Assembly: GCA_019459055.1 (NCBI GenBank)
Contig: JAIBEI010000040.1
Span: forward strand, 1-64,000
Length of the DNA: 64,000 nucleotides
From: Thiobacillus sp.
GTDB lineage: Bacteria > Pseudomonadota > Gammaproteobacteria > Burkholderiales > Thiobacillaceae
Reading direction: 5' to 3'
Positions 22,009-64,000 of the stretch are shown here, one piece after another (position 1 is the stretch's first letter; every line of letters starts with the position of its first letter). The notes under the pieces were generated by a model. It saw only the letters and a program-made list of their open reading frames with translations. It was not told the DNA's origin and ran no database searches. Position numbers and translations under genes: made by a program.

Positions 22009-23558
<1,550 letters not shown>

Positions 23559-23562
<4 letters not shown>

Positions 23563-25115
23563 GGGCGCGCTCCCCCGATGGGCAGCTGCACGCGCATGCG
23601 GCAGCCGGCGCGGTGCGCCGGGTCGACGTCGAGCGTGCCGCCGTGGCGCGCCACCACTTCCTGCGCGATCGCCAGGCCCATGCCGAGGTGGTGCTGGTCG
23701 GCGCCCTTGGTGGTGAAAAAGGGCTGGAACACCTTGAAGCGCCACTCCTCGGGCACGCCCGGGCCGCTGTCCTCGACGACGACCTCGACGTGGTCGGCCG
23801 CGGCCAGCGTGGCGACGCGCAGTTCGCGCGGCCCGCCGCGCGCTTCGGTGAGTGCCTCCACCGCGTTGTCGATGAGCTGCTTGAACAGGGTGCACAGCTG
23901 CGTGGGCCGGCCGGCAATCGGCGGCAGCAGCGCCGCGGGCTGCCAGTCGACCACGATGCCTGCCGCCAGCAGGCGCGGGGTGGCCAGTTTGAGGAGGTCG
24001 CGCAGCACGGTGTTGAGGTCGACTGACTGCGCCTGCTCGCCGGCGTCGTCGGGGATGCTGGCGCGCAGGGTGTCGAGCGCCTCGCGGCCCTGGCGCACGG
24101 CGTCGTCGAGCGCGGCGGCGAGCGCCGCGTCGCCGTCGGCTTCCTTGCGCCGGTCGAGCAGCTTGACCGCTGCTGCCAGCAGGTTGAGCGGGCCTTCCAG
24201 CTGGTATACCGCGCCGGCCAGCGCCTCGCGCAGGCCCTGGATGCGTTCCTGTTCGGCCATCAGCGCGTGCAGACCGTTGATGCGGATGGCCTCCTGCTGG
24301 CGCTTGAGCTCGCTGATGTCCTGGATGGTCAGCAGCAGGTAGTGGCGCCTGGCCGGTTCGTAGAAGGCGTCGGCGCTGACGTCCTGCTCCTCGAACCAGG
24401 AGATGGAGCAGGCGAACCAGCGCGGCGCGCGCCCGGGCTGCTCGATCAGCAGCTCGCGGTTGGAGAGGCCGCGCCGGTTGGCGCGCAGGGTGTCGAAGCC
24501 GGGCCCGATCTGCGCGCGCAGGGCAGCCATCAGCGTGGCGGCCGGCTCCTGCCCGAGTTCGCCGATCAGCTTCTTGTAGGCGTGGTTGTCGAGCAGCACG
24601 CGCTCGTCCTCGTCCAGGAGCACGATCGCGACCTGCGCCGCGTCGACCACCGACTCGATCAGCGCCTTGTGGTTCTGCACCTGGCGCTCGAGCCGATGCA
24701 CTTCGGTAACGTCGCGGTGCATGCCGAGGTAGTGGGTGGTGTTGCCGTTTTCGTCGACCACCGGCGAGATGGTCAGGTCGGCGAGGTAGCGGCTGCCGTC
24801 GCGGCGCCGGTTGACCAGCATGCCGTTCCACGGGCGCTGTCTTTTCAATTGCGCCCACAGGGTCTCGTAGACGATCTTCGGCGTGACCCGGTAGGACAGG
24901 ATCGACTCGTTGTGCCCGGTCACTTCCGCCTGCGAGTACCCGGTGACGCGCTCGAAAGTGGGATTGGCGTACAGGATGCGGGCGTCGGCGTCGGTGATCG
25001 AAATGGCGAGCGCCGCCTGCTCCACCACCTGGCGGAACACCTGCGACGGGACGGACGCAGCCGAGGACGAGTTGTGGGGCGGATTGGCATGGTCGGGGGC
25101 GGCGGGCTGGCTCAT
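23559..25115 (-). CDS. nifL: NifL, redox and nitrogen sensing anti-activator of NifA
   Basis: 518 residues. Two PAS domains (about 28-140, with SITDADARILYANPTFERVT; and about 150-265) precede a helical region and a histidine-kinase-type ATPase domain (about 400-515: N-box LIDNAVEAL, G1 DSGPGVP, G2 GLAIAQEVVARHGG). The first PAS of NifL proteins carries FAD and senses redox state; the ATPase domain binds ADP and then NifA. The helix that would hold a phospho-accepting His reads VYQLEGPLNLL, without His, consistent with a non-kinase mode. The start at 25115 follows a sigma-54 promoter at 25154-25168, leaving a leader of about 28 bases. Confidence 0.92.
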
Positions 25116-25153
25116 TGCGATATCAATATCCGGATGTGACGGATAGACGTTAC

Positions 25154-25168
25154 GCAACAAGCGTGCCC
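25154..25168 (-). promoter_or_regulatory. sigma-54 promoter of nifLA
   Basis: On the minus strand the sequence reads GGGCACG-CTTG-TTGC, against the consensus TGGCACG-N4-TTGC, with the essential GG and GC in place. Predicted transcription start is near 25143, 28 bases before the nifL ATG. It suggests that nifLA is activated by NifA or NtrC. Confidence 0.7.
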
Positions 25169-25210
25169 GTTCGGACACGCGCCGGCATCTGACGCGCAGG
25201 CCGCGTGCTT

Positions 25211-25226
25211 TGTCGGCTTTGCTACA
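25211..25226. promoter_or_regulatory. NifA upstream activator site (TGT-N10-ACA)
   Basis: TGT at 25211-25213, ten bases, ACA at 25224-25226: a full match to the NifA binding consensus. It lies about 108 bp upstream of the -24 element of rnfA and about 45 bp upstream of the -24 element of nifL. The site is symmetrical, so one bound NifA could serve both divergent promoters. Confidence 0.65.
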
Positions 25227-25332
25227 GCAGGCGGTGGCAGGGCCTGTCCGCGACAAGCGGTTTGTGCACCGAATAGGTGCCGATCGGCCCCAAGCCCTTG
25301 ATTTCCGGTGCACCGGCGACGCACGACCGGTT

Positions 25333-25348
25333 TGGCACGGCCTTTGCG
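25333..25348 (+). promoter_or_regulatory. sigma-54 promoter of the rnf operon
   Basis: TGGCACG (25333-25339), four bases, TTGCG (25344-25348): a match to the sigma-54 consensus at every conserved position. Predicted start near 25359, 14 bases before the rnfA ATG, with GGAGAG lying between. Confidence 0.82.
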
Positions 25349-25372
25349 AAGCACAGGGCAGGAGAGACGCAT

Positions 25373-25948
25373 ATGAGCGAATACCTGCTGATGCTGCTGG
25401 GTACGGCCCTGGTCAACAACGTGGTGCTGGTGAAATTTCTCGGGCTGTGCCCGTTCATGGGCGTGTCGAGGAAGATGGGCGGCGCGCTGGGGATGGGCAT
25501 GGCCACGACCTTTGTGCTGACCCTGGCGACCGCCGCCACCTGGATGCTGGAACACTGGATGCTGGCACCGCTCGGCATCGAGTATCTGCGCATCCTCGCC
25601 TTCATCCTGGTGATCGCAGCGGTGGTGCAGTTCACCGAGATGGCGATCCGCAAGACCAGCCCCGCCCTGTACCAGGTGTTGGGCATCTACCTGCCGCTGA
25701 TCACGACCAACTGCGCGGTGCTCGGGGTGGCGATCCTCAACGTGCAGGAACAGCACGCTTTCGTCGAAAGCCTCTTGTACGGCTTCGGTTCCGCGCTCGG
25801 CTTCACCCTGGTGCTGCTGCTCTTCACCGGCCTGCGCGAGCGCCTGGCGCTCGCGCAGGTGTCGGAAGCGATGGCCGGCGCGCCGATCGGCTTCGTCACC
25901 GCGGGCCTGCTGGCGCTGGCCTTCATGGGCTTCGCCGGACTGGCCTAA
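25373..25948 (+). CDS. rnfA: RnfA, membrane subunit of the Rnf complex
   Basis: 191 residues, six membrane helices, beginning [20 protein letters not shown] and containing [21 protein letters not shown] and [13 protein letters not shown], which hold the conserved Cys residues of RnfA/NqrE. In diazotrophs the Rnf complex uses the ion gradient to push electrons from NADH to the ferredoxin or flavodoxin that reduces nitrogenase. First gene of rnfABCDGEH; the ATG at 25373 has GGAGAG upstream. It is expressed from the sigma-54 promoter at 25333-25348, so it belongs to the nif regulon. Confidence 0.94.
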
Positions 25949-25958
25949 GGAGACAAGC

Positions 25959-26516
25959 ATGATCGCTGCCCTCACCAGCCTTACCGTCCTCGGAACCAGC
26001 CTCGGTCTCATCCTCGGCCTCGCCGCGCGCTTCTTCAAGGTCGAAGGCAACCCGCTGGTCGAAGAAATCGAGGCCCTGCTGCCCGGCACACAATGTGGCC
26101 AGTGCGGCTACCCCGGCTGCACCGGCGCGGCGCAGGCGTTGGCCAACGGCAACGCGCCGCTGACGTTGTGCCCGCCCGGCGGGCGTGCGGTGGTGGCGGC
26201 GCTGGCGGCGAGGCTCGGAATGGAGGCTGACCTGTCCGGCGTCGAGGATGCGGGGCCCCGCATTGCCGAAGTGCGCGAGGAGCTGTGCATCGGCTGCACC
26301 CGCTGCTACAAGGTCTGTCCTACCGACGCCGTGCTCGGCGCAGCCAAGCACATCCACGCCGTGTTCAGCGAGGCCTGCACCGCCTGCGGCAGCTGTGTCG
26401 ACGTTTGCCCGACCGAGGCCATCCTGCTGCGCCCACTCGCGCCGACCCTGCAGTCGTGGGGCTGGGGCAAGCCCGGCTTGCAGCCGCTGGCAATTGCGCA
26501 AGGGATGGCGGCATGA
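25959..26516 (+). CDS. rnfB: RnfB, iron-sulfur subunit of the Rnf complex
   Basis: 185 residues. An N-terminal membrane helix (about 4-24) is followed by the 4Fe-4S domain TQCGQCGYPGC (about 45-55, with the distal Cys in LCPPGG) and two ferredoxin motifs, CIGCTRCYKVCP (about 110) and CTACGSCVDVCP (about 140). RnfB passes electrons to the soluble ferredoxin. AGGAGA precedes the ATG. It is 10 bp after rnfA and overlaps rnfC by ATGA. Confidence 0.94.
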   Translation: MIAALTSLTVLGTSLGLILGLAARFFKVEGNPLVEEIEALLPGTQCGQCGYPGCTGAAQALANGNAPLTLCPPGGRAVVAALAARLGMEADLSGVEDAGPRIAEVREELCIGCTRCYKVCPTDAVLGAAKHIHAVFSEACTACGSCVDVCPTEAILLRPLAPTLQSWGWGKPGLQPLAIAQGMAA

Positions 26517-27991
26517 AGCTGTTCAAAATGCGCGGCGGCGTCCACCCCGAGGCACGCAAGGCCGACTCCTCCGAGCGACCCATCCGCATCCTGCCGCTGC
26601 CGCCGCTTTTGCACGTGCCGCTACAGCAGCACATCGGTGCGCCCGCCAAGCCGGTGGTGCGGGTCGGCGACAAGGTGCTGGCGGGGCAGCTCGTCGGCGT
26701 CGGCCAGGGCCACGTCTCGGCGCCGGTGCACGCGCCGACTTCGGGAACGGTGGTGGCGATCGGCGACCATCCGGCGCCGCACCCGTCCGGCCTGTCCGCC
26801 GCCACGGTGACCATCGCCCCCGACGGCGAGGGACGCTGGTTCGAATACGAGGTGCCTGCCGATCCGTTCGCGTTGGCGCCGGACGACATCGCTGCGCGTG
26901 CCGGCGCCGCCGGCATCGTGGGACTGGGCGGTGCCGCCTTCCCGTCGTCGGTCAAGCTCGACGCTTCGCGCCAAAGCGGGGTGGACACCCTGGTCATCAA
27001 TGGCGGCGAGTGCGAGCCTTACCTCACTTGCGACGACCGCATCATGCGCGAGCGGGCAAGCGAAATCGTCACCGGCATCCGCCTGATCCAGCATGCCGTC
27101 GGCGCCACGCGCGCACTGGTCGGCATCGAGGACAACAAACCCGAGGCGCTCGCGGCGATGCGCGCGGCTGCCGCCGCAACCGATGTGCAGATCCGCGCGG
27201 TGCCGGCGATGTACCCGATGGGCTGGGAAAAGCAGATGATCCACGCGCTGCTCGGCCGCGAGGTGCCAGCGGAGGGGCGCAGTGCCGACATCGGCGTGCT
27301 GGTCCACAACGTCGCCACCGCGTGGGCGGTGCAGCAGGCCGTCTGCCAGGGCCGCCCGCTGGTGTCGCGCATCGTCACTGTGAGCGGCGGTGCAGTCGTC
27401 GCACCGTGCAATCTGGAGGTGCCGATCGGTGCCCCGGTGCAGGCGCTGTTCGACGTGTGCGGCGGCTTCCGCACGACGCCCGCGCGCCTGGTGCTGGGCG
27501 GTCCGATGATGGGTCAGCAGATCGCCCGCACCAGCGTGCCGGTGGTGAAGGGCACCAGCGGCGTGCTGGCGCTGACCCAGGCGGAGATCGGGCTCACCCG
27601 GCCCGCACCGTGCATCCGCTGTTCCACTTGCGTGCGCGCCTGTCCGGTGGGGCTGCTGCCGCTGGAGATCGCCGCGCGCGTGCGCAGCGACGACCTCGCC
27701 GGCGCGGTGGCGCTCGGCCTCAAGGACTGCATCGGCTGCGGTTCCTGTTCCTACGTGTGCCCGTCCGGCATTCCGCTGGTGCATTTCTTCAACTACGCCA
27801 AGGGCGATCTGGCGGCGCAGGCGCGCAGCAAGGCGAAGCAGGAAACCACCAGGAAGCTCGCGGCGGAACGCAGCGCGCGCATCGAGCGCATCGCGCGCGA
27901 GCGCGAGGAAGCCGCGGCGGCGCGCAAGGCGGCCAAGGCCGCGAAGGAAGCCGCCGCCCGCGCCGCTGCAACGACGGAGGCCGCCGCATGA
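26513..27991 (+). CDS. rnfC: RnfC, NADH-oxidising subunit of the Rnf complex
   Basis: 492 residues. It has an N-terminal RnfC barrel (MKLFKMRGGVHPE), the nucleotide/FMN-binding domain (GIVGLGGAAFPSSVKLD, TLVINGGECEPYLTCDDR), an SLBB-type segment (GGPMMGQQIARTSVPV) and two 4Fe-4S motifs, CIRCSTCVRACPVG (about 367) and CIGCGSCSYVCPSG (about 407). It ends in a 60-residue Ala, Lys and Glu-rich tail. RnfC accepts electrons from NADH on the cytoplasmic face. Both ends overlap the neighbouring rnf genes. Confidence 0.94.
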   Translation: MKLFKMRGGVHPEARKADSSERPIRILPLPPLLHVPLQQHIGAPAKPVVRVGDKVLAGQLVGVGQGHVSAPVHAPTSGTVVAIGDHPAPHPSGLSAATVTIAPDGEGRWFEYEVPADPFALAPDDIAARAGAAGIVGLGGAAFPSSVKLDASRQSGVDTLVINGGECEPYLTCDDRIMRERASEIVTGIRLIQHAVGATRALVGIEDNKPEALAAMRAAAAATDVQIRAVPAMYPMGWEKQMIHALLGREVPAEGRSADIGVLVHNVATAWAVQQAVCQGRPLVSRIVTVSGGAVVAPCNLEVPIGAPVQALFDVCGGFRTTPARLVLGGPMMGQQIARTSVPVVKGTSGVLALTQAEIGLTRPAPCIRCSTCVRACPVGLLPLEIAARVRSDDLAGAVALGLKDCIGCGSCSYVCPSGIPLVHFFNYAKGDLAAQARSKAKQETTRKLAAERSARIERIAREREEAAAARKAAKAAKEAAARAAATTEAAA

Positions 27992-29052
27992 CGACGATCG
28001 CCCATTCCCCGCATGCCCGCGCCGCCAACAGCGTGTCGCGCATCATGGCGACGGTGATGCTGGCGCTCGTGCCCGTTACCCTTTTCGGCTTCTGGCTCAA
28101 CGGCTGGCCGGCGGTGTACCTGTGGACGGTGTCGCTTGCCGCCGCGCTGGTGGGCGAGGCGGCCGCACTCAAATTCCAGCGGCGCGCGGTGAAGCCCGCG
28201 CTCCTGGACGGCTCCGGCGTTTTGACCGCGTGGCTGCTGGCGCTGTCGCTGCCGCCGTGGGCGCCGTGGTGGATCGCCGTGGTGGGGTCGCTGTTCGCGG
28301 TGGTGATCGCCAAGCAGGTGTTCGGCGGGCTCGGGCAGAACGTGTTCAACCCGGCGATGGCGGCGCGCGTGATGTTGCTGATTTCCTTTCCGCTCGAAAT
28401 GACGATCTGGGTGCCGCCGATGAGCCAGCCGGGGCTGCTCGACAGCCTCGCCGTGACCTTCGGCGGGGGCCAGCTCGATGCCGTCAGCAGCGCTTCGCTG
28501 CTGGGCCACGTCAAGACCGAATTCAGCCGCGGCCTGGGTCTCGAGCAGGCGCTGGCCGGGCACTATGCGCCGCTCGAGGCGCTGTGGGGCCGGCGCAGCG
28601 GCAGCCTCGGCGAAACGTCCGCCCTGCTGATTTTCATTGGCGGCGTGTTCCTGCTCGCGCGCCGCACCATCACCTGGCACGCGCCGGTCGCCATGCTCGC
28701 CGGGGTGGCGCTGCCCGCGCTGCTGATGAACCTCGTCGCACCCGAACACTACGCCGATCCGGTCTACCACCTGCTGTCCGGCGGGGTGATGCTGGCCGCC
28801 TTTTTCATCGTCACCGACCCCGTCACTTCGCCCAACACCGCGCTCGGCCAGCTGCTGTTCGGGCTCGGCTGCGGCCTCCTGACCTACGTGATCCGCACCT
28901 GGGGATCGTATCCGGAAGGCGTGGCCTTCGCCGTGATGCTGATGAATGCCGCCACCCCGCTGATCGACCGCAATATCAAGCCGCGCATCTACGGCCGCAC
29001 CCGCCAGGGCGCGCCGTTGATGACCCGGCATGCGAAGAAGGACGCCGCATGA
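27988..29052 (+). CDS. rnfD: RnfD, flavin-carrying membrane subunit of the Rnf complex
   Basis: 354 residues with about nine membrane helices (NqrB/RnfD family), conserved QVFGGLGQNVFNPAMAARV and TDPVTSPNTALGQLLFG. In the family a Thr in an S-G-A-T context carries covalent FMN. The corresponding loop here seems to be LDAVSSASLLGHVKTE, which has Ser where Thr is expected, so flavinylation may be altered. ATGA overlap with rnfC before and rnfG after. Confidence 0.9.
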   Translation: MTTIAHSPHARAANSVSRIMATVMLALVPVTLFGFWLNGWPAVYLWTVSLAAALVGEAAALKFQRRAVKPALLDGSGVLTAWLLALSLPPWAPWWIAVVGSLFAVVIAKQVFGGLGQNVFNPAMAARVMLLISFPLEMTIWVPPMSQPGLLDSLAVTFGGGQLDAVSSASLLGHVKTEFSRGLGLEQALAGHYAPLEALWGRRSGSLGETSALLIFIGGVFLLARRTITWHAPVAMLAGVALPALLMNLVAPEHYADPVYHLLSGGVMLAAFFIVTDPVTSPNTALGQLLFGLGCGLLTYVIRTWGSYPEGVAFAVMLMNAATPLIDRNIKPRIYGRTRQGAPLMTRHAKKDAA

Positions 29053-29669
29053 AGCTCGACGCGCTGCGGGCCAGACTCGCCTACCAGACCGTACTGCTCG
29101 GCTGTGTGGTGCTCCTGACCAGCGCCGCGCTGGCGCTGGCCTCGCGCGCCACCGAGGCCGACATCGAGGCGGCGGCCATGCGCGACCTCAGGCAGTCGCT
29201 GGCGCAGGTGCTGCCGGGGGAGTACGATAACGACCTGCTGACGGACACGCTCCGGCTTGACGTCGACGAGGGTCCGACCGTCTACCGCGCGCGGCGCGCG
29301 GGACGCGTCGAGGCCGTGGTGTTCCAGACCGTGGCCCGTGGCTACGCCGGGCCCGTCGTTTGCATCATGGGGGTGGCGCGCGACGGCCAGCTGCTCGGCG
29401 TGCGCGTACTTAGCCACAAAGAAACGCCGGGGCTGGGCGACAAGATCGAACCGGCCAAGGACACCTGGATCCATGAATTCGAAGGCAAGTCGCTGGGGTC
29501 GCCTACGGCGGACAAGTGGGCGGTGAAAAAGGACGGCGGCGCCTTCGACCAGTTCGCCGGCGCCACCATCACCCCGCGCGCCGTGGTGCGCGCGGTCAAG
29601 GGAGGGCTGGAACTGTTCGCCCGGGAACGGTCGCGCATGCTCGGCGAGATGGAGGAGGGCAAGACATGA
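29049..29669 (+). CDS. rnfG: RnfG, periplasmic FMN-binding subunit of the Rnf complex
   Basis: 206 residues. A single N-terminal helix ([19 protein letters not shown]) anchors a periplasmic FMN-binding domain with [18 protein letters not shown] and the flavinylation motif [12 protein letters not shown], whose Thr after GATI is the FMN-phosphothreonine site. It relays electrons across the periplasmic face between RnfD and RnfE/A. ATGA overlaps on both sides. Confidence 0.93.
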
Positions 29670-30340
29670 GTTACGCACGCATTGCCAAAGACGGCCTCTG
29701 GGACAACAACGTGGTGTTCTCCCAGATGCTGGCGCTGTGCCCCTTGCTGGCGGTGACCGGCAGCGCCACCAACGGGCTCGGCATGGGGCTCGCCACCACC
29801 GCGGTGCTGCTCGCCTCCAACACCCTGATCTCGGCGGTGCGCCACCTGGTCAGCACCGAGGTGCGCATTCCGGTCTACATCGTGCTGATCGCCACCCTGG
29901 TCACCCTGGTCGACATGGGGCTGAACGCCTGGGCGCACGAGCTGTACAAGGTGCTGGGGCTGTTCATCGCGCTGATCGTGGTGAACTGCGCGATTCTCGG
30001 GCGCGCCGAGTCATTCGCCTCCAAGTCGCCGGTTCTGCATGCGGCGGCGGACGGCCTGATGATGGGACTGGGTTTTACCTTCGCACTGGTCGTCATCGGC
30101 GGGGTGCGCGAGATCCTCGGCGCCGGTACCCTGTTCGCCAACGCGCATCTGCTCTTGGGCCAGGGCTTCGCCTTTCTGGAGCTGACCGTGATCCCCGAAT
30201 ACCGCGGCTATCTGTTGATGATCCTGCCGCCGGGCGGCTTCCTCGCGGTGGGATTTTTGCTCGCCGGCAAGCGCATGCTCGACCGGCGTCTGGCCGCGCG
30301 CCGCATCACGGCAGCCCTTTCCCTGGCTCCCAGCCCCTAG
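29666..30340 (+). CDS. rnfE: RnfE, membrane subunit of the Rnf complex
   Basis: 224 residues, six membrane helices, RnfA/RnfE/NqrD family: [20 protein letters not shown] at the start and [17 protein letters not shown] in the middle hold the conserved Cys residues. It overlaps rnfG by 4 bases. The C-terminus ends in LSLAPSP beyond the last helix, a little longer than usual. Confidence 0.93.
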
Positions 30341-30361
30341 TCCCTAACTCCTAACCCAGCC

Positions 30362-30646
30362 ATGCAAGTCGCCATCGCCTATTCCGAACCCGCTCAACAA
30401 GTCTGGCTGCGCATCGACGTGCCGGAGGACTGCACGGTGCAGGACGCCATCGAGCGCTCTGGCATCCGGCGCCAGTTTCCCGAGATCGACCTGGCGACCA
30501 ACAAGGTGGGGGTGTTCGGCAAGCTCGTCAAGCTCGACGCCGGACTCAAGCCCGGCGACCGCGTGGAAATCTACCGCGCCATCATCGCCGACCCTGCAAC
30601 CGTGCCGCGCCGCCGGATCGGGGATGACGACGACGATGACGACTGA
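30362..30646 (+). CDS. rnfH: RnfH family ubiquitin-like-fold protein
   Basis: 94 residues, the UPF0125/RnfH family: VQDAIERSGIRRQFPEIDL, NKVGVFGKLVKLDAGLKPGDRVEIYR. The fold is a small beta-grasp. RnfH is often encoded with Rnf or with the toxin RatA, and its role in the complex is not settled. The tail is unusually acidic (GDDDDDDD). It lies 21 bp after rnfE and is the last gene of the operon, convergent with the rrf2 gene 15 bp away. Confidence 0.88.
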   Translation: MQVAIAYSEPAQQVWLRIDVPEDCTVQDAIERSGIRRQFPEIDLATNKVGVFGKLVKLDAGLKPGDRVEIYRAIIADPATVPRRRIGDDDDDDD

Positions 30647-30661
30647 CGGAAAAGATCCCGG

Positions 30662-31120
30662 CTAGCACGTGTCTTTGCTGCGCGCCGGCGGTGCTTCCAT
30701 CAGCCAGCGGGGCAAGCCCTTGTGTCCAATCAGCTCGGCCAGCGTGCAGTGGCCGAACTGCCCGAGTATTTCCTGCTTGATCGGCTGCCACTGGCAGTGC
30801 AGCACACAGGCCGTTTCATCGTCGCATTCCTTGAGCCCCAGCAGACAGTCGCGGGGACCGCGCTCGCCACGGGTGAGTGCGACGATATCCAGGAGGGTGA
30901 GCCGCTCGGTTCCCGGGTTCAGGGAGAAGCCGCCGCCGCGCCCGCGCGACGACGACAGCCAGCCGACGCGGCAGGGTTCCTGCAGCAGCTTGGCGAGATA
31001 GGGTAGCGGAAGCCTCAACTGCGCGGCGAGTTCGCGCGCCAGCACCGGGCCGCCGGACGGGTGGGCGACCAGGTACAGCAGGACCTGCAGGGTGTATTGG
31101 GTGCTGCGGCTGAGGATCAT
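30662..31120 (-). CDS. Rrf2 family iron-sulfur type transcription regulator
   Basis: 152 residues. An N-terminal winged helix (MILSRSTQYTLQVLLYLVAH, LAKLLQEPCRVGWLSSSRGRGGGF) is typical of Rrf2/IscR/NsrR. A cysteine-rich loop (RDCLLGLKECDDETACVLHC, about 93-112) could ligate an Fe-S cluster and so sense iron, redox state or NO. Similar genes sit in nif clusters of Azoarcus-like bacteria. It is the last gene of the nifV operon and overlaps the nifM stop by 4 bases. Confidence 0.85.
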   Translation of the reverse strand: MILSRSTQYTLQVLLYLVAHPSGGPVLARELAAQLRLPLPYLAKLLQEPCRVGWLSSSRGRGGGFSLNPGTERLTLLDIVALTRGERGPRDCLLGLKECDDETACVLHCQWQPIKQEILGQFGHCTLAELIGHKGLPRWLMEAPPARSKDTC

Positions 31121-31980
31121 GGGGCGTTACGCCTGGGCGGGTTCAGCAGTTGATTGACCCAGGCCTGCTGGCACACGCGCTTGCGGCGCTGCTCGAGCAG
31201 GGTGCGGATGGGGCCGCGCGCGTCCTTCAGCGGTAGCACCGCGGCCTGCGTGATGGCCTCGCAGCGCAAGAGGTGCAGGCCCATCGGCGATTCGAGGATT
31301 TCGCTGGCCTCGCCTTCCTGCATGCGAAAGAGCGCGGCATCCAGTTCGGGATAGAGTTGACCGATCGGCACCTCGCCGAGCAGGCCACCCTGCAGCGCGG
31401 TGGGACACTCCGAATGCTTCATTGCCTGCTCCTCGAAGCGCTGCGGCTCGCGTGCCAGCCGTGCGGCGATGGCCTCGATGCGGGCCTGCGCGGCGGCGCG
31501 CGTGTTGTCGGGCAGTTCGTCGTTGATGGTGACCAGGATATGGCGCGCGCGCCGGATCTCAGGGCGGTGGAACTGGTCTGGGTGGTACTGGTAGTAGAGC
31601 TCGACGTCGATGTCGGACACTCGCGCCGCGCGCGTGCCGACCTTCTCAAGGATCGCCTCGACCATCAGCTCGCGCTCGAGCGCGTCGGTGAAGCCGGCCT
31701 CGTCGAGGCCGTTGTGCAGCAGGTCGGCATGGAAGTCGGCTTCGTCGGCGTAGCGCTTGCGCACCTCGGCCAGCGCCGCGGCCAGGCTGGGCGCAGGTAC
31801 CGTGGCGTCGCGTGCCTCCGGCGCCGCCAGTACCCGTGCTTCCAGACCGTATTGCTTGGCGGCCACGCACTGCACCCGCGCGCGCTCGCTGGCTTCCAGC
31901 ACGGCCGGCGCCTTGCCGAACAGGTTCTGCGCGGCCTTGAGTTCGAGGTACGCCACCCCGGCGTGCGTCGGTTCAGGCAT
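31117..31980 (-). CDS. nifM: NifM, peptidyl-prolyl isomerase for nitrogenase Fe protein maturation
   Basis: About 287 residues. The C-terminal half is a PpiC/parvulin domain (RRARHILVTINDELPDN, HSECPTALQGGLLGEVPIGQL, SPMGLHLLRCEAI). The N-terminal half is the helical NifM-specific region. NifM is needed to fold the nitrogenase iron protein NifH. Start 31980 or 31989 (adds three residues); both overlap the end of nifZ. The order nifW-nifZ-nifM matches Azotobacter. Confidence 0.88.
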   Translation of the reverse strand: MPEPTHAGVAYLELKAAQNLFGKAPAVLEASERARVQCVAAKQYGLEARVLAAPEARDATVPAPSLAAALAEVRKRYADEADFHADLLHNGLDEAGFTDALERELMVEAILEKVGTRAARVSDIDVELYYQYHPDQFHRPEIRRARHILVTINDELPDNTRAAAQARIEAIAARLAREPQRFEEQAMKHSECPTALQGGLLGEVPIGQLYPELDAALFRMQEGEASEILESPMGLHLLRCEAITQAAVLPLKDARGPIRTLLEQRRKRVCQQAWVNQLLNPPRRNAP

Positions 31981-32428
31981 CGTACACATCCATCACAGGC
32001 GATTCCAGGCAGGACTCGGGCACCTGCAGGGTGTGCCCAGGAAAACGCACATGGTACTGCACGCCGTCGGCGAGGTCGCGCAGCACCTTGAGCACCTCGC
32101 CCTCGGCGCCGGCGGCGGCGAACACCTCGCCGTTCACCGCCAGGGTGAGCTGGGCCACCACCTTCTCGCGCGTCTCGAAGCGGCTCTCCACCCAGGTCTC
32201 GTCGGCCGGCTGCAGCTCCTCCTCGCGGCAGCCGACCACGCGGCCGTGGTCGAGGAAATTGACCGTGTAGATGACCTGGTCCTGCAGAAAGGTGCCGACG
32301 TTCATCACGTAGCCCACGCTGCCGCGCCGGATCAGCAGGTTGCCGACGTCGAGGCCGGGGAAGGTGCCGTCGTTGCGCACGTTGCGCGTCAGCCGCACGG
32401 CTTCGCCGAAGTCGAAACGCTGTTCCAT
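31973..32428 (-). CDS. nifZ: NifZ, nitrogenase P-cluster assembly factor
   Basis: 151 residues starting MEQRFDFGEAVRLTRNVRNDG. The NifZ core is clear: GLDVGNLLIRRGSVGYVMNVG and FLQDQVIYTVNFLDHGRVVG. A C-terminal extension (about 80-151) contains VQYHVRFPGHTLQVP, which looks like a degenerate second NifZ-like unit. NifZ aids formation of the second P-cluster in NifDK. The ORF is open upstream, but that sequence is antisense-like and overlaps nifW; the ATG at 32428 is 5 bases from the nifW stop. Confidence 0.88.
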   Translation of the reverse strand: MEQRFDFGEAVRLTRNVRNDGTFPGLDVGNLLIRRGSVGYVMNVGTFLQDQVIYTVNFLDHGRVVGCREEELQPADETWVESRFETREKVVAQLTLAVNGEVFAAAGAEGEVLKVLRDLADGVQYHVRFPGHTLQVPESCLESPVMDVYDA

Positions 32429-32432
32429 GGCG

Positions 32433-32807
32433 TCACGAACCTGCGACAGTCGAGCTACCGCACGTCCCGCCGCTGCTGCTGCAACCGCAGCCGCCCGCAG
32501 CCGGCGCGGGCGTGCCGGCCTTGCTGAGGGTATGCATGTGGAACACCTTGAACACCTTCTCGGTGAGCGCGTCGGATTGGACGAAATCGTCGTAGGCTTG
32601 CTGCAGCAGGCGCGCATACGCCGCGCGTCGCTGGGCGTCGTCCTGCGGCATGCAGCCCGCCTTGGCGATGTAGTCGTGGAAGCGCTGCAGGATGTGCAGG
32701 CGGTTCACCTGCACGGTGCGCGCGTCGTATTCGATGCCGAAGTATTCAAGAAACTCCTCGGCGGCCGAGAGATCTTCCAGCGCTTCGTCGAGTGTCAGGT
32801 CGTCCAT
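32433..32807 (-). CDS. nifW: NifW, nitrogenase-protective protein
   Basis: 124 residues. The NifW family pattern is visible: DLSAAEEFLEYFGIEYD, VNRLHILQRFHDYI and YARLLQQAYDDFVQSDALTEKVF. NifW associates with the MoFe protein and guards it against oxygen or assists its maturation. A cysteine-rich tail (GGCGCSSSGGTCGSS) extends beyond the usual end and could bind metal. AAGGAAA precedes the ATG at 32807. Confidence 0.9.
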   Translation of the reverse strand: MDDLTLDEALEDLSAAEEFLEYFGIEYDARTVQVNRLHILQRFHDYIAKAGCMPQDDAQRRAAYARLLQQAYDDFVQSDALTEKVFKVFHMHTLSKAGTPAPAAGGCGCSSSGGTCGSSTVAGS

Positions 32808-32833
32808 GATGTTTCCTTTTCTAATGGGTTGAT

Positions 32834-33349
32834 TCAGGCCGCGGCTTCTTCCAGCAGGGTGTTGCGGTACACGTCGAGCAGGATCTTGCCGCCGAGGCGG
32901 TCGTGGCTATCGAGTTGGATCAGCTTTTCCAGCATGGCCTCGCCCTCGGCCGCGAGGCCGAGGCGCAGGTTGATGTAGCCGGCGGCCTTCAGCACCATCA
33001 GGTAGAAGCGCAGCAGGCCGATCGAGCGCATCGCGGCGTAGCCAAGTTGTTCGGGGCGCAACTGCTGCCAGCGGCCCGGAAGGTTCAGCCGGTGCGCAGC
33101 GGCTTCCAGCGTGCGGTCGGCGACGACCCGTGCGTCGTCGAGCCGGTGCTGGTAGAAATAGAAGCGGTACAGCGCGACCAGAACCACCAGCTGCGAAGGC
33201 GCGAGGAAGTAGGCGCGCAGCAGCAGGCCTTCACTCTCGTCCGAGCCGTTGCCCGCGCCCGCTGCGGCGATCAGCCGCTCCACCTCGGGCGCGATCGGGT
33301 CGTCGAAGTACAGCGCTGCCTGGTCGAAATCCATCAGGTCCATGTTCAT
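32834..33349 (-). CDS. nif-cluster protein of unknown function, helical repeat type
   Basis: 171 residues, start at 33349 where the ATG overlaps the cysE stop (ATGA). Paired helices such as [22 protein letters not shown] and [20 protein letters not shown] have the spacing of TPR-like repeats, suggesting a scaffold or chaperone. Proteins of this size are found between cysE and nifW in some betaproteobacterial nif clusters, but I know no demonstrated role. Cotranscribed with nifV, cysE, nifW, nifZ and nifM. Confidence 0.75.
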
Positions 33350-34128
33350 GCCTTCCGTATCGTGCGTGCCACCTCGGTGCCGCACAGGTCGTCCGCTTCG
33401 CACACGCTGCACTGGCCGTCGACCGGCTCGCCGTTCTGGCGCAGGGTCGCTTCCAGCACCTCGATGCGCTCCATCAGGCAGGCGATCGCCTTGCCCACCG
33501 GGTCAGGGATCAGGTGATGATCGAGATTGATGCCGAGTGCGTTGGCCGCGCCTTCGTCCTGTCGTAGCACGACACGGCCGGGGATGCCGACCACCGTGCG
33601 CTGCGCGGGCACGTCCTTCACCACCACCGAGTTGGCGCCGACGCGCACGTGGTCGCCGAGCGAAATCGGGCCCAGAACCTTGGCCCCGGCGCCAATCACC
33701 ACGTTGTTACCCAAAGTCGGGTGGCGCTTGCCGCGGTTCCAGCTGGTGCCGCCCAGGGTCACGCCGTGATACAGGGTGACGTCGTCGCCGATCTCGGCGG
33801 TCTCGCCGATCACCACGCCGGCGCCGTGGTCGATGAAGAAGCGGCGGCCGATGGTCGCGCCGGGATGGATGTCGATGTTGGTCAGCAGCCGCGCGAACCA
33901 CGACAGCAGACGCGCCGGATAGCGCAGCCCCGCGCGCCACAGCCGATGCGCGACGCGCTGCAGCAGGATGGCGTGCACGCCGGGATAGGTGGTGATGACC
34001 TCGAAGCGCGAACGCGCAGCCGGATCGCGCTGGAACACGCAGGCGATGTCCTCGCGCAGCAGCGCGAACAGGCCCGGGGCAGCAGGTGCGGCGCTCAGGA
34101 TTTCCTCGGGATGCATGGCTTCGTCCAT
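33346..34128 (-). CDS. cysE: serine O-acetyltransferase (nif-associated CysE)
   Basis: 260 residues. The left-handed beta-helix hexapeptide repeats are clear ([60 protein letters not shown]), with the catalytic His residues in IHPG and DHG. The enzyme makes O-acetylserine, so it raises cysteine supply for Fe-S cluster synthesis during nitrogen fixation. The start at 34128 has GAGGAG upstream. The C-terminus adds a ~45-residue segment with [10 protein letters not shown] that is not in housekeeping CysE. Confidence 0.92.
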
Positions 34129-34138
34129 TTCGCGCTCC

Positions 34139-35284
34139 TCAATGCAATGCGCCCGGCACATGACGTCCGATCATGCGCTGGTACAGGAACAGCAGTTCGT
34201 GGTCGGCCGGCGAGCGCTTGGCGCGCTCGGCGAACACGCGGATGTCGGGCAGCAGTTCGCGCGCATCGGCTGAACTCAAGGTCAGACCCATGCGCGCATA
34301 GGCGGCGATGATGCCGTGCGAGCCGGAATGCTTGCCGACCACAAGCGTATGCGTGCGTCCTACTTCAGTCGGATCGAAACCCTGGTAGGTGGCCGGGTCC
34401 TTCAGCAGGCCGTCAACGTGGATGCCCGATTCGTGGGTGAACACGCCGCCGCCGACCACGCTTTTCTGCCACGCCACCGGCCGGCCCGAAGCCGATGCCA
34501 CCGTGTCAGACAGCACCGGAAACAGGCTGAGATCGACGCCAGTATTGAAGTTATAAAGTTTGGCCAGTCCCAGCGCGACTTCTTCCAGCGGCGCATTGCC
34601 GGCGCGTTCGCCCAGCCCGTTAACCGTGGTGTTGACGTGCGTCGCACCCGCGCGGCAGGCGGCCAGCGTGTTGGCGGTCGCCAGGCCGAGGTCGTCGTGC
34701 GCGTGCATCTCGATTTCCAGATCGACCGTGCAGCACAGGGTGGCAATGGCCTCATGCACGCCGAAGGGTTCCATCACCCCGAGCGTGTCGGCGAAACGCA
34801 GGCGGCGCGCGCCGGCTTCCTGCGCAGCCTCGGCCACGCGCAGCAGAAACTCCTGATCGGCACGCGAGGCATCCTCGCAGCCGACGATGACCTCTAGCCC
34901 CAGATCGAGCGCGCGCGGCACCATGTCGCGGATCGCCTGCAGCACCCAGGCGCGGTCCTTCTTCAGCTTGCGCGTGATGTGCAGATCGGACACCGCGACC
35001 GACACGTCGATCAGATGTGCCTTCAGGTTGCGGCAGGCGTCGATGTCGGCTTCGCGCATCCGGCTCCACACCACCAGCTTCGACTTCAGCTCGAGGTCGG
35101 CCACCGCACGGATGCCCTCGCGCTCGGCTTCGCCCATCGCCGGGATGCCCACTTCCAGCTCCGGCACACCCATCGCATCGAGGCGTCCGGCAATCGCCAG
35201 CTTCTCGTCCAGCGTGAAGGCCACGCCGGCGGTCTGCTCGCCATCGCGCAAGGTGGTGTCGTCGATGATGATGGTGCGGTTCAT
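34139..35284 (-). CDS. nifV: NifV, homocitrate synthase
   Basis: 381 residues. [20 protein letters not shown] is the metal-binding start of the HMGL/isopropylmalate-synthase family; [16 protein letters not shown] holds the second pair of metal-ligand histidines; the NifV-type segment [15 protein letters not shown] follows. It condenses acetyl-CoA with 2-oxoglutarate to homocitrate, the organic ligand of FeMo-co. The frame is open to 35401, but the ATG at 35284 matches family N-termini and lies 32 bases after a predicted sigma-54 start. First gene of the operon that runs to rrf2. Confidence 0.93.
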
Positions 35285-35326
35285 GCTCGCTTGGAATCCA
35301 TTCGTTCGGCAGATGCCTGGATATCT

Positions 35327-35341
35327 GCAAGCCCTATGCCA
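35327..35341 (-). promoter_or_regulatory. sigma-54 promoter of nifV
   Basis: Minus strand TGGCATA-GGGC-TTGC against TGGCACG-N4-TTGC; the essential GG and GC are present with two mismatches outside them. Predicted start near 35316, 32 bases before the nifV ATG. Confidence 0.6.
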
Positions 35342-35548
35342 GATGGGATAAAAACGTATGCGCATGAATTGCAAAGTGAATTTGTGGGGAGCCTCACTCA
35401 ACTCCGGTAGGCAATGGCACGCCGAATCTGGCTTCGTCGGGTTTACTACAAACGGGCCGTGGCGATGGGCGACCCATAGCCTATGGGATGCCGACGGTAT
35501 GACCGCAAGCCGGCTGAGCCGGTTAGCGCGGCGATTTATTGGAACTGT

Positions 35549-37018: not shown

Positions 37019-38734
37019 CTACGCATACACCGGCGCGAAGTCCTTTTCCGGCTCGGCCGAGGGGCCGTTCTCGCCCCAGTAGGGCGACAGTTTCCGCAGC
37101 TGCGCGACGATTTCCGGCACCACCTGGATGACGCGGTCGATCTCCTCTTCCGTGGTGTAGCGCGACAGCGAGAAGCGGGTGGTGCCGTGCGCGGCGGTGT
37201 AGGGGATGCCCATCGCGCGCATGACGTGGCTGGGTTCGAGCGAGCCGGAGGTGCAGGCCGAGCCCGAGCTGGCGGCGATGCCGAACTTGTTCAGCAGCAG
37301 CAGGATGGCTTCGCCTTCGATGTATTCGAAGGCGATGTTGCTGGTGTTGGGCAGGCGGTTGCTGGCGTCGCCGGTGACGAACGCGTGCGGGACCTTGGCG
37401 AGGATGCCGGCTTCGAGCTTGTCGCGCAGGCGGCGCACTTCGGTGTTCTCGTGCTCCATCGCTTCCAGCGCCATCTCGCAGGCCTTGCCCAGTGCAACAA
37501 TTGATGCGGTGTTCTCGGTGCCCGCGCGGCGGCCGCGTTCCTGATGGCCGCCGCGTAGCAGCGGACGGAAGCGCACGCCGCGCTTCAGGTACAGCACGCC
37601 GATGCCCTTGGGCGCATGCAGCTTGTGGCCCGACAGCGACAGCATGTCGATCTTGCTGTTCTTCAGGTCGATCGGCACCTTGCCCACCGCCTGCACAGCG
37701 TCGGTGTGGAACATCACGCCGGCGGCATTGGCCAGCTCGGCCATTTCCAGCACCGGGAAGAAACTGCCGGTTTCGTTGTTGGCCCACATCACCGACACTA
37801 CCGCGACGCGGTCGGTGAGCAGCCGCTTGTATTCGTCCAGGTTGACGCGGCCCTTGCCATCGACCTTCAGGTAGTGGGCGGTGTAGCCTTCCTTCTCCAG
37901 CTGACTATAGAGGGAGAGGATGGCCGGGTGCTCGAGCACCGTGGTGATGATCTCGCGGCGCTCGGGATTGGCCTTCAGCGCGGAAAGGATCGCCGTCGAA
38001 TCCGACTCGGTGCCGCACGAGGTAAAGATGATCTCGGACTCGTGTTCCGCGCCCAGCAGTTCCTGCACCTGCATGCGCGCCTTCTTCACCGCCAGCCCGA
38101 CCTTGTTGCCGAAGCTGTGCAGCGACGACGGGTTGCCGAACTGCTCGAGATGGGCGTCCTCCTCACTGAAATCCCCCATGCTGAAAGGCATGTCGTAGGA
38201 GTATTCCTGGACCAACAGGTGGTCTTCCTTGTGGCTACCTGAAAGCCACAACAAGAAGTCTGCTCGCGCGGGCATGCCTTTGTCGGCGAGTGCTGGGTCG
38301 ACTTTCCCACCGAGGCCCAATATATTGTGGATTTCCGTGCAGGCTTTGTCGCGCTCGACCTCAAAATTGGCTGGGCCTGGGAGGGTCAAAGGACACCAGA
38401 GTGCTTGAACGGCTAGCGCCTTATTCTCCAACGGCTGCGTCAACCGTTTCAGATACTCGCGCATTGCCGTATAGCCCAGCCCGTAGGCCACGGCAGACAT
38501 ATGCTGCAAAGCAGAGCGAGTTTGCTCCTTGACGGTTTCGTCGATGATGCCCAGTTCGTTAATGACGGTGCTGTGAACCTTGCTGGTTTTGGTATCCCGC
38601 CACGGTTGGAGATGGGGGTCGTCAAGCTGAATGAGCTCGTAATCGGCAAGGCATCCAAGCACGCCGCGCTTCACAAAGATTTCGTAGGCTTGGCCCCAGA
38701 TAACGGCCTGCTGCTGGAAGGTCTGTTCGTCCAT
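37019..38734 (-). CDS. nifS: fusion of a defence-island protein N-terminus to a truncated NifS cysteine desulfurase
   Basis: 571 residues in two unrelated parts. Residues 1-196 belong to the defence island: unknown helical sequence and then ADFLLWLSGSHKEDHLLVQEYS, which resembles the start of a PD-(D/E)xK nuclease core. From residue 197 (EQFGNPSSLHSFGN) the chain is NifS, with the PLP lysine in LSLSGHKLHAPKG and the catalytic Cys in ASSGSACTSGS, to the normal end FAPVYA. The first ~27 residues of NifS, including the conserved YLDNNATT strand near the cofactor, are missing. GC content and codon use change at the junction (about 38146). Activity is doubtful. The ATG shares one base with the stop of the upstream gene. 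Confidence 0.88.
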   Translation of the reverse strand: MDEQTFQQQAVIWGQAYEIFVKRGVLGCLADYELIQLDDPHLQPWRDTKTSKVHSTVINELGIIDETVKEQTRSALQHMSAVAYGLGYTAMREYLKRLTQPLENKALAVQALWCPLTLPGPANFEVERDKACTEIHNILGLGGKVDPALADKGMPARADFLLWLSGSHKEDHLLVQEYSYDMPFSMGDFSEEDAHLEQFGNPSSLHSFGNKVGLAVKKARMQVQELLGAEHESEIIFTSCGTESDSTAILSALKANPERREIITTVLEHPAILSLYSQLEKEGYTAHYLKVDGKGRVNLDEYKRLLTDRVAVVSVMWANNETGSFFPVLEMAELANAAGVMFHTDAVQAVGKVPIDLKNSKIDMLSLSGHKLHAPKGIGVLYLKRGVRFRPLLRGGHQERGRRAGTENTASIVALGKACEMALEAMEHENTEVRRLRDKLEAGILAKVPHAFVTGDASNRLPNTSNIAFEYIEGEAILLLLNKFGIAASSGSACTSGSLEPSHVMRAMGIPYTAAHGTTRFSLSRYTTEEEIDRVIQVVPEIVAQLRKLSPYWGENGPSAEPEKDFAPVYA

Positions 38735-41700
38735 CAGACCGTTGCTTCCTTGTCCTTGTGGAGCACCTTGGTGACGTGCGCCAGGAGGGCAGGGAAGGAT
38801 AGAAGGACCGAACCTTTCCCGCGGCGCTGCATGACCTCCAGTTCACCAGCGGCCGCAGCAGTTCCTGGCATGGCCCACCCAAACGGGTCGAGCACAGGCA
38901 GTACCTGGGATTTAGTGGCAGCACGCTCGCTTTCCAGGAAGTGAATGCCACGCAGTACCCCCAGGATGGATTCACGGACAGCCTTGCCTAGGGGTGTCGT
39001 GCCGAGCATGTTTTGGCGGACTGTTTCGCTCCATTCCAGGTCGGACAGCCGTTGCTCAATATCGAAGAAGTAGGTGCAGAACCCGGACTGCGGCCGGCCA
39101 TTCTCTGTAACTACGGCCAATGTGGCAAAGGTGTAAATCGGCTGAAGTCCCCGAATAAGCTCGCGTTCAGCCTGTTCATACATTCGTTGGTGGTCGGCAA
39201 AAGTCACAACTTCAAACGCACTCTCCGATGCGCTCCGGGTATGCAGGCGTGTTGCGGGGAATACGTCCCGACGCAGGGGGTACAGATAAACATCAGGAAA
39301 CTTGCTGGAGGCTGACTCAAGGAATTCATGCGTGCCGTGGGGGGAATGCCTCTCGGCCGCGCGGCCAATGTGCCTGTTGCCGTAGTGGTGAGACAGCAAG
39401 ACGATGTGCTGATAACCCAAAGACCGGAGGCGCGCTATCTCTTCCAGGATGAGGTCAGGTTCACGGAAGGACTTTCTATTGTCGACCAATCGCGATTGCA
39501 TGTGCTCCACGCGGAGCGTCATGGAATCGCCGGTACGGTCTGCACAGAACGTCCGCGAAATAAACAGGAATCCGTCGGCATCCGGATATAACGGATGCAC
39601 GTCGCATGGCCGTGTGACGTAGGACAGAACGGCAACCTTGTCGAGGCTGCCACCCGCATTGGTCACTATGGGGAAGCTGCCTTGCATAGCCAGTAATGAA
39701 TTACGTTTTCGGTACTGGACCGTATTGTCATTGCCCTGGGTGTGGAAGCCCTGCATTTTGACGAGTAGTTCCCGGCTCAAGGCGCGCTCTATTGCCTGGC
39801 AGGCGGCGTAGACAGCCGCATTACCGTCAGTCGATTCGGATTCCTTCCCGCCGGTTTGCAGCCGCACCAAATACATCGCTAGGTTTTCCAGGCCAGGAAT
39901 GGCGCGGCTGCGGCGTATGAGCTCCCAAAGGGTGAGGTAGGCCAGAAGCGCAAATGCAGCGCAGCCGGCTGTGCGCATTTGCTCAAATTTCGCCTTTTCG
40001 TCACCGGCCGTTCCCTTCTTCAAACTGAGGGAACGCACGTCGTATTCGATGTCGACGCCGCAACCCGCGTCAAAATTTGCAGCTATTGCATCTGCAGGCC
40101 GCCAAGGTTCACCTTTAACGGCTGCAGGGACCAAAGGAATGAAGCGCACTGGTAGCACTGGCTGCTTTAGGTTGCGTTCCATCCTGACTTCATGACGCTC
40201 TCCTGTGGGGGTCAGGGAGCGTTCCATCAGGTGCGTTTCCACCTTGTAGGAGGCCAGAGCACGCACCTCACCAGGCGTGTCGGTAATGGTCAGATGTTGA
40301 AACCACGTAATGTTGTCGTTGCCTGAATCGTTCTTGACCAAAATCTCCGTGCTCTTGGATGACATGCCCCGCAGCGCGGTCCAGTCAACTGCCCCTTGGT
40401 GAACGGCAACGAAAAATTTGTCGGCCACTCGATTGGCATCGTCCACGAGCTTTGTGGATTTGGTCTGAAGGACACGTATCAGGGCTTGCGAGATGCCCGT
40501 CATTACGGACTCCCGTGCCCTCAGCTCTTGAATAAGCTTGCGTATCGCGGCAACGGGATTGTCTTTAAGCTCGGCGGTAATTTGCTTGGCGAAGGTGTCA
40601 ATGGATTCGGCCGTTGGCGTATCCATAGAGTCAGGAATGACCATGCGCAAGAAAACTAGTCTTGCAATCGACTGGCCGGCAGAGACCTCGGGGCCTGGAT
40701 TCTCCAACAGCCGTTCCTCGATTCGGTCCAGTCGAGTTGCGAATGCGGACTTCCCTGTCTCCGGGTTATTTCCGTTTACCCGAAACCGATAAGACACTTC
40801 GCGTTTTGTGGCGAATCCATTCTCGGGGTCAACGCGCGCTTCAAACAATTGCACCGACCATTCCGCCCATACAGGCAGGCAGGAATAGAAAGTTGCTTTC
40901 CGCATCTGGTCCGCAAGGTCAATGTTGCTTCGTTGACCATAGACGGTGCTGGCCTCCAGGGGCATCGCCTTGCCAGACGAGCTTGCGAAGGCCGTGAATG
41001 TTTCCAGCACCCGGCTGACATAGGCGTGCAACCCAGGTTTATTGGAGTGTTTCGCAACTGCCTCCATAAGTTTGAATGTCACTTGAAGCCGGACGCGCGA
41101 AAGTGCTTCGTCATCAAGGAAATCCAGAAACCGGCGAATCTGGCTACCAGGCTGCTCCCTCTGGGCGCGGAGGCTGCTGATGATGGGCTCTATTTCATCA
41201 TCTTCGAAGTCATCCTTCTTCAGCTTGTTCTTGATGCCGTCCGTCAACCGGCCGAGCCAATCGCGGCCTTCCACAGTTTCAACCGCAGACAACACACGCG
41301 CAACGTCATGCTCATGCTCCGCTACCTTGCGGTCCGCAGAGGCGAAGCCGATTGGGACCATCGAAGCTTTAGCGGGTGGCTGGGGAAGCTTTACTTGAAG
41401 GCGGTCGGCCAGAGTTTGTAGTGCCTGCTCCGCAGAAGGGGTCAACAAGTTGGGGAATTCGGATTCAGGCAGAACGGCATCAAGCTCAAGGGAAATCATC
41501 TGTTGAAGCTTGACGAGGGCAGCGGTGGTTTTAGCCTCGGTTCCTGGAAGGAGCCGGCCGCCTACCTTTGCTGAGGTGCCACGAGGAGGTAGTTCAAGGT
41601 CGCGAAAGAACCCAACATCCGGTCCGGCTGCTAAATCACTTTTGAACTCTGGCAGCGTATACAAGCGGCGCAGGGTATTAACGAGATTGAGGTGTAATCG

Positions 41701-41847
41701 GCCGTCCTGATATCTAACTATCCCGCTAGGCTCCAAGCCTTCGGGTTTGAGCGCTTGGGTGAGTAATTCACAAAGGCGAGACAGATTGACGGAGGGAGTG
41801 CGTGCGCGCGCAGAGATACTGGCGCCACCCAAATTGGATGTGCTCAT
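38734..41847 (-). CDS. large protein of unknown function in the McrBC-linked cluster
   Basis: 1037 residues with no domain I can name. The start at 41847 (MSTSNLGGASISARART) has AAGGAG upstream. The protein is soluble, mixed alpha/beta, with a basic-acidic helical segment (KNKLKKDDFEDDEIEPIISS, about 220-240). A conserved-looking C-terminal third has LVDNRKSFREPDLILEEIAR followed by QHIVLLSHHYGNRHIGRAAE (about 820-860), clustered His and Arg residues that could form an active site. It has the length of a large defence effector or sensor. It is followed immediately (one-base overlap) by the nuclease-like ORF now fused to nifS, so the two were probably a pair. Confidence 0.75.
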   Translation of the reverse strand: MSTSNLGGASISARARTPSVNLSRLCELLTQALKPEGLEPSGIVRYQDGRLHLNLVNTLRRLYTLPEFKSDLAAGPDVGFFRDLELPPRGTSAKVGGRLLPGTEAKTTAALVKLQQMISLELDAVLPESEFPNLLTPSAEQALQTLADRLQVKLPQPPAKASMVPIGFASADRKVAEHEHDVARVLSAVETVEGRDWLGRLTDGIKNKLKKDDFEDDEIEPIISSLRAQREQPGSQIRRFLDFLDDEALSRVRLQVTFKLMEAVAKHSNKPGLHAYVSRVLETFTAFASSSGKAMPLEASTVYGQRSNIDLADQMRKATFYSCLPVWAEWSVQLFEARVDPENGFATKREVSYRFRVNGNNPETGKSAFATRLDRIEERLLENPGPEVSAGQSIARLVFLRMVIPDSMDTPTAESIDTFAKQITAELKDNPVAAIRKLIQELRARESVMTGISQALIRVLQTKSTKLVDDANRVADKFFVAVHQGAVDWTALRGMSSKSTEILVKNDSGNDNITWFQHLTITDTPGEVRALASYKVETHLMERSLTPTGERHEVRMERNLKQPVLPVRFIPLVPAAVKGEPWRPADAIAANFDAGCGVDIEYDVRSLSLKKGTAGDEKAKFEQMRTAGCAAFALLAYLTLWELIRRSRAIPGLENLAMYLVRLQTGGKESESTDGNAAVYAACQAIERALSRELLVKMQGFHTQGNDNTVQYRKRNSLLAMQGSFPIVTNAGGSLDKVAVLSYVTRPCDVHPLYPDADGFLFISRTFCADRTGDSMTLRVEHMQSRLVDNRKSFREPDLILEEIARLRSLGYQHIVLLSHHYGNRHIGRAAERHSPHGTHEFLESASSKFPDVYLYPLRRDVFPATRLHTRSASESAFEVVTFADHQRMYEQAERELIRGLQPIYTFATLAVVTENGRPQSGFCTYFFDIEQRLSDLEWSETVRQNMLGTTPLGKAVRESILGVLRGIHFLESERAATKSQVLPVLDPFGWAMPGTAAAAGELEVMQRRGKGSVLLSFPALLAHVTKVLHKDKEATV

Positions 41848-58733: not shown

Positions 58734-58789
58734 GATTTCTTGTCAGGGAGGTTTCTGTACTCCTGCGTACCCACATGTTGGAGCAGGTC

Positions 58790-63830: not shown

Positions 63831-63920
63831 GTTTGACGGTTAAAGCAAATCTTGGCCTGTCGACCAAAAATGCCTAGCACAGGACACCCGTAAAAACAAA
63901 ATGTGTCCCATCGTGCAATA

Positions 63921-63963
63921 AAGCATAACGTGACCATTTGGCCACTTTATGCTTAACGCCACA
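63921..63963. other. possible Tn7-like right end (terminal ACA with dyad)
   Basis: AAGCATAA (63921-63928) and TTATGCTT (63947-63954) form an inverted pair around TGACCATTTGGCCA, and the stretch closes with GCCACA (63958-63963). Read inward from the minus strand it starts TGTGGCGTTAAGCATAAAG, comparable to the TGTGGGCG start and AATAAAG words of the Tn7 right end. No second end has been found for comparison, so the call is tentative. Confidence 0.35.
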
Positions 63964-64000
63964 ACTGCATTGGGTTCTAATGGATGGTGTATTGGTGGAG

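Follow-up and report, generated by a model that had tools for sequence, protein, structure and literature searches.

Chimeric open reading frames generated by deletion, and the loss of nif gene clusters, are both known as general phenomena. Cysteine desulfurases of the DndA/SspA type serve as sulfur donors in phosphorothioation systems. Here we describe a hybrid ORF in which the start of a putative defence gene, carried as cargo by a Tn7-like element, is joined in frame to a nifS gene that lacks its own start. The locus lies in a 64,000-nucleotide stretch of a Thiobacillus sp. contig, which we call the window. The draft genome comprises 51 contigs, with a completeness rating of 99.98% and a contamination rating of 0.01%. 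The features around the joint are as follows.

37019..38146, minus strand: nifS codons 28-402 (TIGR03402, 591 bits), without MQGIYLDNNATTRVDPAVVEAMLPYFT
38145..38147, no strand: the joint, CGA, 3 bp common to both parents as judged from the aligned letters of relatives
38147..38734, minus strand: island (putative defence) gene codons 1-196; the parent has 1283-1284 codons in relatives
38734..41847, minus strand: partner gene, 1037 aa, directly upstream of the hybrid and paired with the island gene in 13/13 loci

The hybrid ORF (37019-38734, minus strand) has 571 codons, is stop-free throughout and consists of island-gene codons 1-196 followed by nifS codons 28-402. An earlier note on this DNA had described it as 196 defence-gene residues joined to NifS at EQFGNPSS, and both homologies indeed meet there. 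By blastn, nifS homology stops at 38147 in all seven relatives fetched (L043-L049), and island-gene homology starts at 38139 in 2/2 genomes (L041 and L042, 84%). In the aligned letters, identity with the island gene runs through ...CATCTCGA and identity with nifS begins at CGAGCAGTTC.... The GC content is 0.560 before vs 0.651 after the joint, and the GC3 is 0.694 vs 0.896. The best GC3 change point, fitted blind to the joint, is 38149, in agreement with the change in composition that the note had placed at about 38146. Two independent sets of relatives and the composition, all read from sequence, thus agree on the position of the joint.

The earlier note would have counted many genomes with this two-part protein beside an intact nifS as evidence against its reading. 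The hybrid ORF was found in 0/55 other genomes of the genus (35 in one search and 20 in another), many of which are incomplete. Only 27 of the set of 56 genus genomes have a completeness of at least 90% and a contamination of at most 5%, and absences among relatives are soft for this reason. An exact 29-mer across the joint had no match in viral_contigs, and a 901-bp stretch spanning the joint reached 80% coverage at a single place in none of 74 matching plasmid records, 5 of which were listed. Neither the abstract beginnings found by a literature search nor the passages of PMC10121019 that were available describe the fusion.

Residues 1-200 of the hybrid share 86% amino acid identity with the genes of G030 and G005, two relatives within the genus, in which the full-length parent ORF has 1283-1284 codons. 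With a 7456-base probe that starts at the G030 island gene, only bases 1-596 found a match in the whole assembly. Comparison of the N-terminal 196 residues with full-length homologues, a check that the earlier note had put forward, therefore gives the loss as codons 197-1283, which are missing from the genome. In the missing part of the protein a weak AAA_22 match (443-541) falls short of its cut-off, and a helicase C-terminal match (821-911) just exceeds its own.

The island gene and its partner (~1035 aa) are paired in 13/13 loci of named genomes. We read the pair as a defence module on account of its McrBC and restriction-type neighbors. Neither protein matches a PADLOC or NCBIfam profile, and the ~1035-aa protein and the 1283-aa ATPase/helicase-like protein may for that reason form an unnamed defence module. 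Truncation of the island gene probably disables this module. On a Trichormus plasmid (L100) the helicase homologue is also preceded by a gene of similar length, ~1012 codons. Among the matches listed, four cyanobacterial plasmid proteins align only from residue 208 and four others from residues 1-9. The idea that the N-terminal 200 residues are a separable module was dropped, because the annotated Trichormus protein begins ~200 codons before its match. In a Rhodocyclaceae MAG a frame change near residue 300 interrupts the homologue of the 1283-aa gene (L030, 10001-13818), an interruption that may reflect independent decay or a sequencing error. Beyond the intact 1283-1284-aa gene, a serine recombinase gene and two ParB/RepB-like genes are present at L041 11366-14705 and L042 6536-9899. 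A DNA probe covering this trio found no match in the genome of the window.

The earlier note had called the N-terminal part nuclease-like. The 196 residues match no Pfam, PADLOC or NCBIfam family. Two AlphaFold models were built (pLDDT 73.9 and 62.8), and neither gave a credible match in the PDB. The best Foldseek E value was 0.69 for the 196-aa model. For a longer, low-confidence model it was 3.1e-3, with a TM score of 0.13, to a viral L protein that contains an endonuclease domain. The nuclease-like label for this part thus stands unsupported and unproven.

On the other side of the joint, the window retains the accessory half of a nif region, identified from profile matches.

22009..35401, no strand: retained accessory half of the nif region
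22009-23508: nifA, above its cut-off
31117-31989: nifM, above its cut-off
32433-32807: nifW-like gene, below its cut-off
33346-34161: cysE, above its cut-off
34139-35401: nifV, above its cut-off

The nifA, nifM, cysE, and nifV genes are open, and their alignments with the compared relatives span most of each gene or the whole of it. At 22004, the left boundary of the nif segment, the neighbors differ between the genome of the window, G006, and G015, suggesting that nif has been moved or re-flanked more than once in the genus.

In the relative G015, nifU (298 aa), an A-type Fe-S carrier gene and a flavodoxin gene lie ahead of nifS, and parts of this stretch are also conserved upstream of nifS in six other relatives compared by blastn. 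In the genome of the window, a 3.1-kb probe of this stretch matched the nifS part and otherwise gave four matches that were weak or short. The sole NifU_N match in the genome is IscU on contig 35, next to IscS (668 bits vs a cut-off of 643). The genome search for another nifU or nifS that the earlier note had suggested thus found no second intact copy; contig 35 carries iscS and iscU instead. An 89-codon ORF on contig 13 (L003, 1441-1710) resembles the middle of a cysteine desulfurase over a 65-residue match and is probably a relic of another desulfurase copy.

The loss extends to the nitrogenase. The Oxidored_nitro profile (nifDKEN) has no match in the genome of the window and is present in 14/56 genus genomes. 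Seven genomes have a nifS of at least 96% identity over its length (G006, G009, G015, G026, G029, G060, and G068); G017, with a 91-residue nifS piece (98%) at a contig edge, was not counted among them. Six of these seven keep nifDKEN; the remaining one, G009, has a completeness of 75%. The nifEN and nifDK genes of G015, G029, G060, and G068 share a contig with nifS and, judged by strand and coordinate, are in all four cases on the side that is lost here, and the far end of the nitrogenase genes is 30-67 kb from nifS. On the single G015 contig, for instance, nifS is at 94-95 kb, nifEN at 122-125 kb, and nifDK at 139-142 kb. The nitrogenase genes of G006 and G026 are on contigs other than the nifS contig. 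No linked nifU or nitrogenase partner of the hybrid was found in the genome. The earlier note had supposed that nifU and the nifS promoter were removed; nifU is indeed gone, but the extent of the loss was understated, as the nifDKEN homologues are gone too.

The island that supplies the N-terminal part of the hybrid continues almost to the right end of the window.

42524-43846, minus strand: McrC-like gene, same cargo block
43852-46335, minus strand: McrB-like AAA+ gene, same cargo block
58775-61459, plus strand: tnsAB fusion, Tn7-like element
61478-62506, plus strand: tnsC, Tn7-like element
62332-63777, plus strand: tniQ ORF; the true start is probably later
63887..63963, plus strand: right end of the Tn7-like element, ...CGCCACA, 86% over 77 bp to the G005 element
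63993..64000, minus strand: 3' end of the tmRNA gene, which continues to ~base 360 of L004, aligned to nine relatives with an ARAGORN tmRNA call

A TnsA-TnsB fusion, TnsC, and TniQ were all found in the right part of the island. Their homologues in G005 are in the same order, with 51, 50, and 43% identity, respectively. Among the 56 genus genomes, G005 is the only one besides the genome of the window with a TnsAB match of more than 32% identity. A four-gene cargo block is also present in G005 with 86-91% identity. At 49993-51707 the island holds adjacent DUF6527 and DUF6791-ThiF (E1-like) genes, possibly a ubiquitin-like conjugation pair.

The right ends are alike up to 63963 of the window and 69652 of G005, where the similarity ceases. 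The distance from the right end to the 3' end of the tmRNA gene is 29 bp, and the G005 element ends 28 bp from a tRNA-Ala gene. That two related elements end at such similar distances from these genes suggests that the TniQ of both aims at the tRNA-Ala-like 3' end common to tmRNA and tRNA-Ala genes. Past the right end are a gph-like gene, ubiG, and gyrA, and not nifS or nifU. As for the left end, no second end in inverted orientation was found within 7 mismatches elsewhere on the contig. A candidate left transposon end of the G005 element near 35.05 kb was not accepted, as a matching target duplication is absent. In nine relatives the 2.2-12.3 kb beside the tmRNA gene contain neither the island nor nif and match only short repeats.

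The gene order of the contig was compared with that of relatives. On G015 contig 24 the tmRNA gene is at 212 kb and the match to 9.9-16.0 kb of the window is at 327-333 kb, so that ~115 kb separates the two and their order is reversed. Neither in G015 nor in G029 does the contig with the tmRNA gene carry nif. With this gene order a simple local deletion is insufficient, and a longer-range rearrangement is needed besides it or instead of it.

We propose that a deletion, or a rearrangement that lost sequence overall, left the hybrid ORF as its scar, and from the sequence comparisons we put the probability of this at about 0.82. The ancestor would have carried a full nif region. One breakpoint would have fallen after codon 196 of a cargo gene, the left-most one to survive in the Tn7-like defence element beside the tmRNA gene, and the other between nifS codons 27 and 28. 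A single event may then have removed the remainder of the island gene together with nifU, the genes for the A-type Fe-S carrier and flavodoxin, and nifEN/nifDK. The 3 bp common to both breakpoints, together with the absence of both continuations from an assembly of this completeness, points to illegitimate, end-joining-like recombination as the probable mechanism. The frame would have stayed open by chance, at odds of ~1 in 3 given the right orientation, and selection would not be required.

Such a joint would also result from a chimera of assembly or binning that put together sequence from two separate places, with the contigs that naturally continue each half missing from the assembly. The draft state of the genome and the disagreement in gene order with G015 fit this explanation. 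Against it, both continuations and nifDKEN would all have to be absent from an almost complete assembly with next to no contamination, and 3 common bp are probably too few for a k-mer assembler to join. The earlier note had left the choice between a recombination joint and a chimeric assembly open. That the joint unites two unrelated genes is borne out, and the missing continuations of both parents make the chimera the less likely choice, one we consider improbable.

A second alternative concerns what the hybrid does. It could be a functional bifunctional protein, expressed from the defence operon, in which the island N-terminal module tethers a cysteine desulfurase to that operon, for example as a sulfur donor. 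The state of the NifS part bears on this most directly. It covers positions 25-379 of the TIGR03402 profile with a score of 591 bits vs the cut-off of 530.75, and it is 96-98% identical to five genus relatives and 97% identical to two others. The intact nifS product of L045 has 402 aa with EQFGNPSS from residue 28, which puts the loss from the hybrid at 27 residues, as the earlier note had estimated. Alignment to a solved desulfurase (5zsp) indicates that the regions of Lys-371 and Cys-494, which we take to be the PLP lysine and the catalytic cysteine of the hybrid, are both kept, again as the note had it. The 571-codon frame is open, and both predicted models show a low-confidence, linker-like stretch over the joint (residues 179-196 and 180-241). 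Decay of the nifS part is also not clear: 33 synonymous and 8 non-synonymous changes were counted on its branch vs 26 and 3 on the sister G006 branch (Fisher p = 0.34). These counts are compatible with a recent event, with retained function or with too few changes, and all of these features could be accommodated by an active fusion.

Other observations stand against an active fusion. The DxxATT motif, present in 22/22 NifS/IscS-type loci examined, including the IscS of this genome, is gone from the hybrid. The loss of this otherwise invariant N-terminal motif leads us to predict that the hybrid product is probably inactive or unstable, and we infer that the desulfurase work of the cell is done by the intact IscS. 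The hybrid also lacks that portion of the island protein in which the helicase C-terminal match lies. A PADLOC scan of 14 window proteins (the main island ORFs including the fusion, with small ORFs left out) found no Dnd or Ssp partner, and its SspA and DndA models match the NifS part only, so a phosphorothioation system was rejected. The available flanks of all 13 gene-pair loci are without a NifS-like match, and the fusion is absent from the 55 other genus genomes. The earlier note had ranked a functional fusion as the less likely outcome; the lost motif, the missing partner genes and the absence from relatives agree with that ranking, and we regard an active tethered desulfurase as very improbable. 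If it did exist, the deletion that ended nitrogen fixation would have made a new defence-linked enzyme.

The least probable explanation, a direct insertion of the island into nifS with the nifS 5' part at the other end of the island, is suggested by the abutment of island and nifS and by the view of the earlier note that the joint fixes the insertion point; it was rejected because the joint falls within a cargo gene of 1283-1284 codons with no terminal sequence found there, the right end at 63963 lies by the tmRNA gene and leads into the gph-like gene, ubiG, and gyrA, and the nifS 5' part and the nifU stretch are nowhere in the genome.

Most likely, then, the hybrid is a deletion scar beside a Tn7-like defence element and marks where nitrogen fixation was lost, in what was ordinary genome decay next to a mobile element. 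The data suggest that the open frame of the hybrid arose incidentally and is no innovation. The value of the observation is that it connects the nitrogen-fixation loss of one lineage with a specific joint, which PCR can check. It is also a warning for annotation pipelines, which could name the hybrid NifS, SspA or DndA.

Compared with NifS proteins (TIGR03402), the hybrid likewise scores above the equivalog cut-off and keeps the catalytic lysine and cysteine regions. It differs in that 196 residues of an unrelated protein replace the first 27 residues, DxxATT included. It resembles DndA and SspA in being a cysteine desulfurase sequence beside restriction-type genes whose NifS part matches both PADLOC profiles. 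Unlike in those systems, the proteins scanned include no dndBCDE or sspBCD partner, and the desulfurase part belongs to the nif region.

With Tn7-like transposons that carry defence cargo the island shares the TnsAB, TnsC, and TniQ proteins as well as a defined right end close to a tRNA-like gene. It differs from them in that its left end was not found on the contig and its left-most cargo gene is truncated. With deletion-made chimeric ORFs and with nif loss the locus has in common a microhomology joint, absent reciprocal parts and leftover accessory genes. What sets the hybrid apart from known deletion-made chimeras is that one partner is the cargo of a Tn7-like defence element and that the frame is still open.
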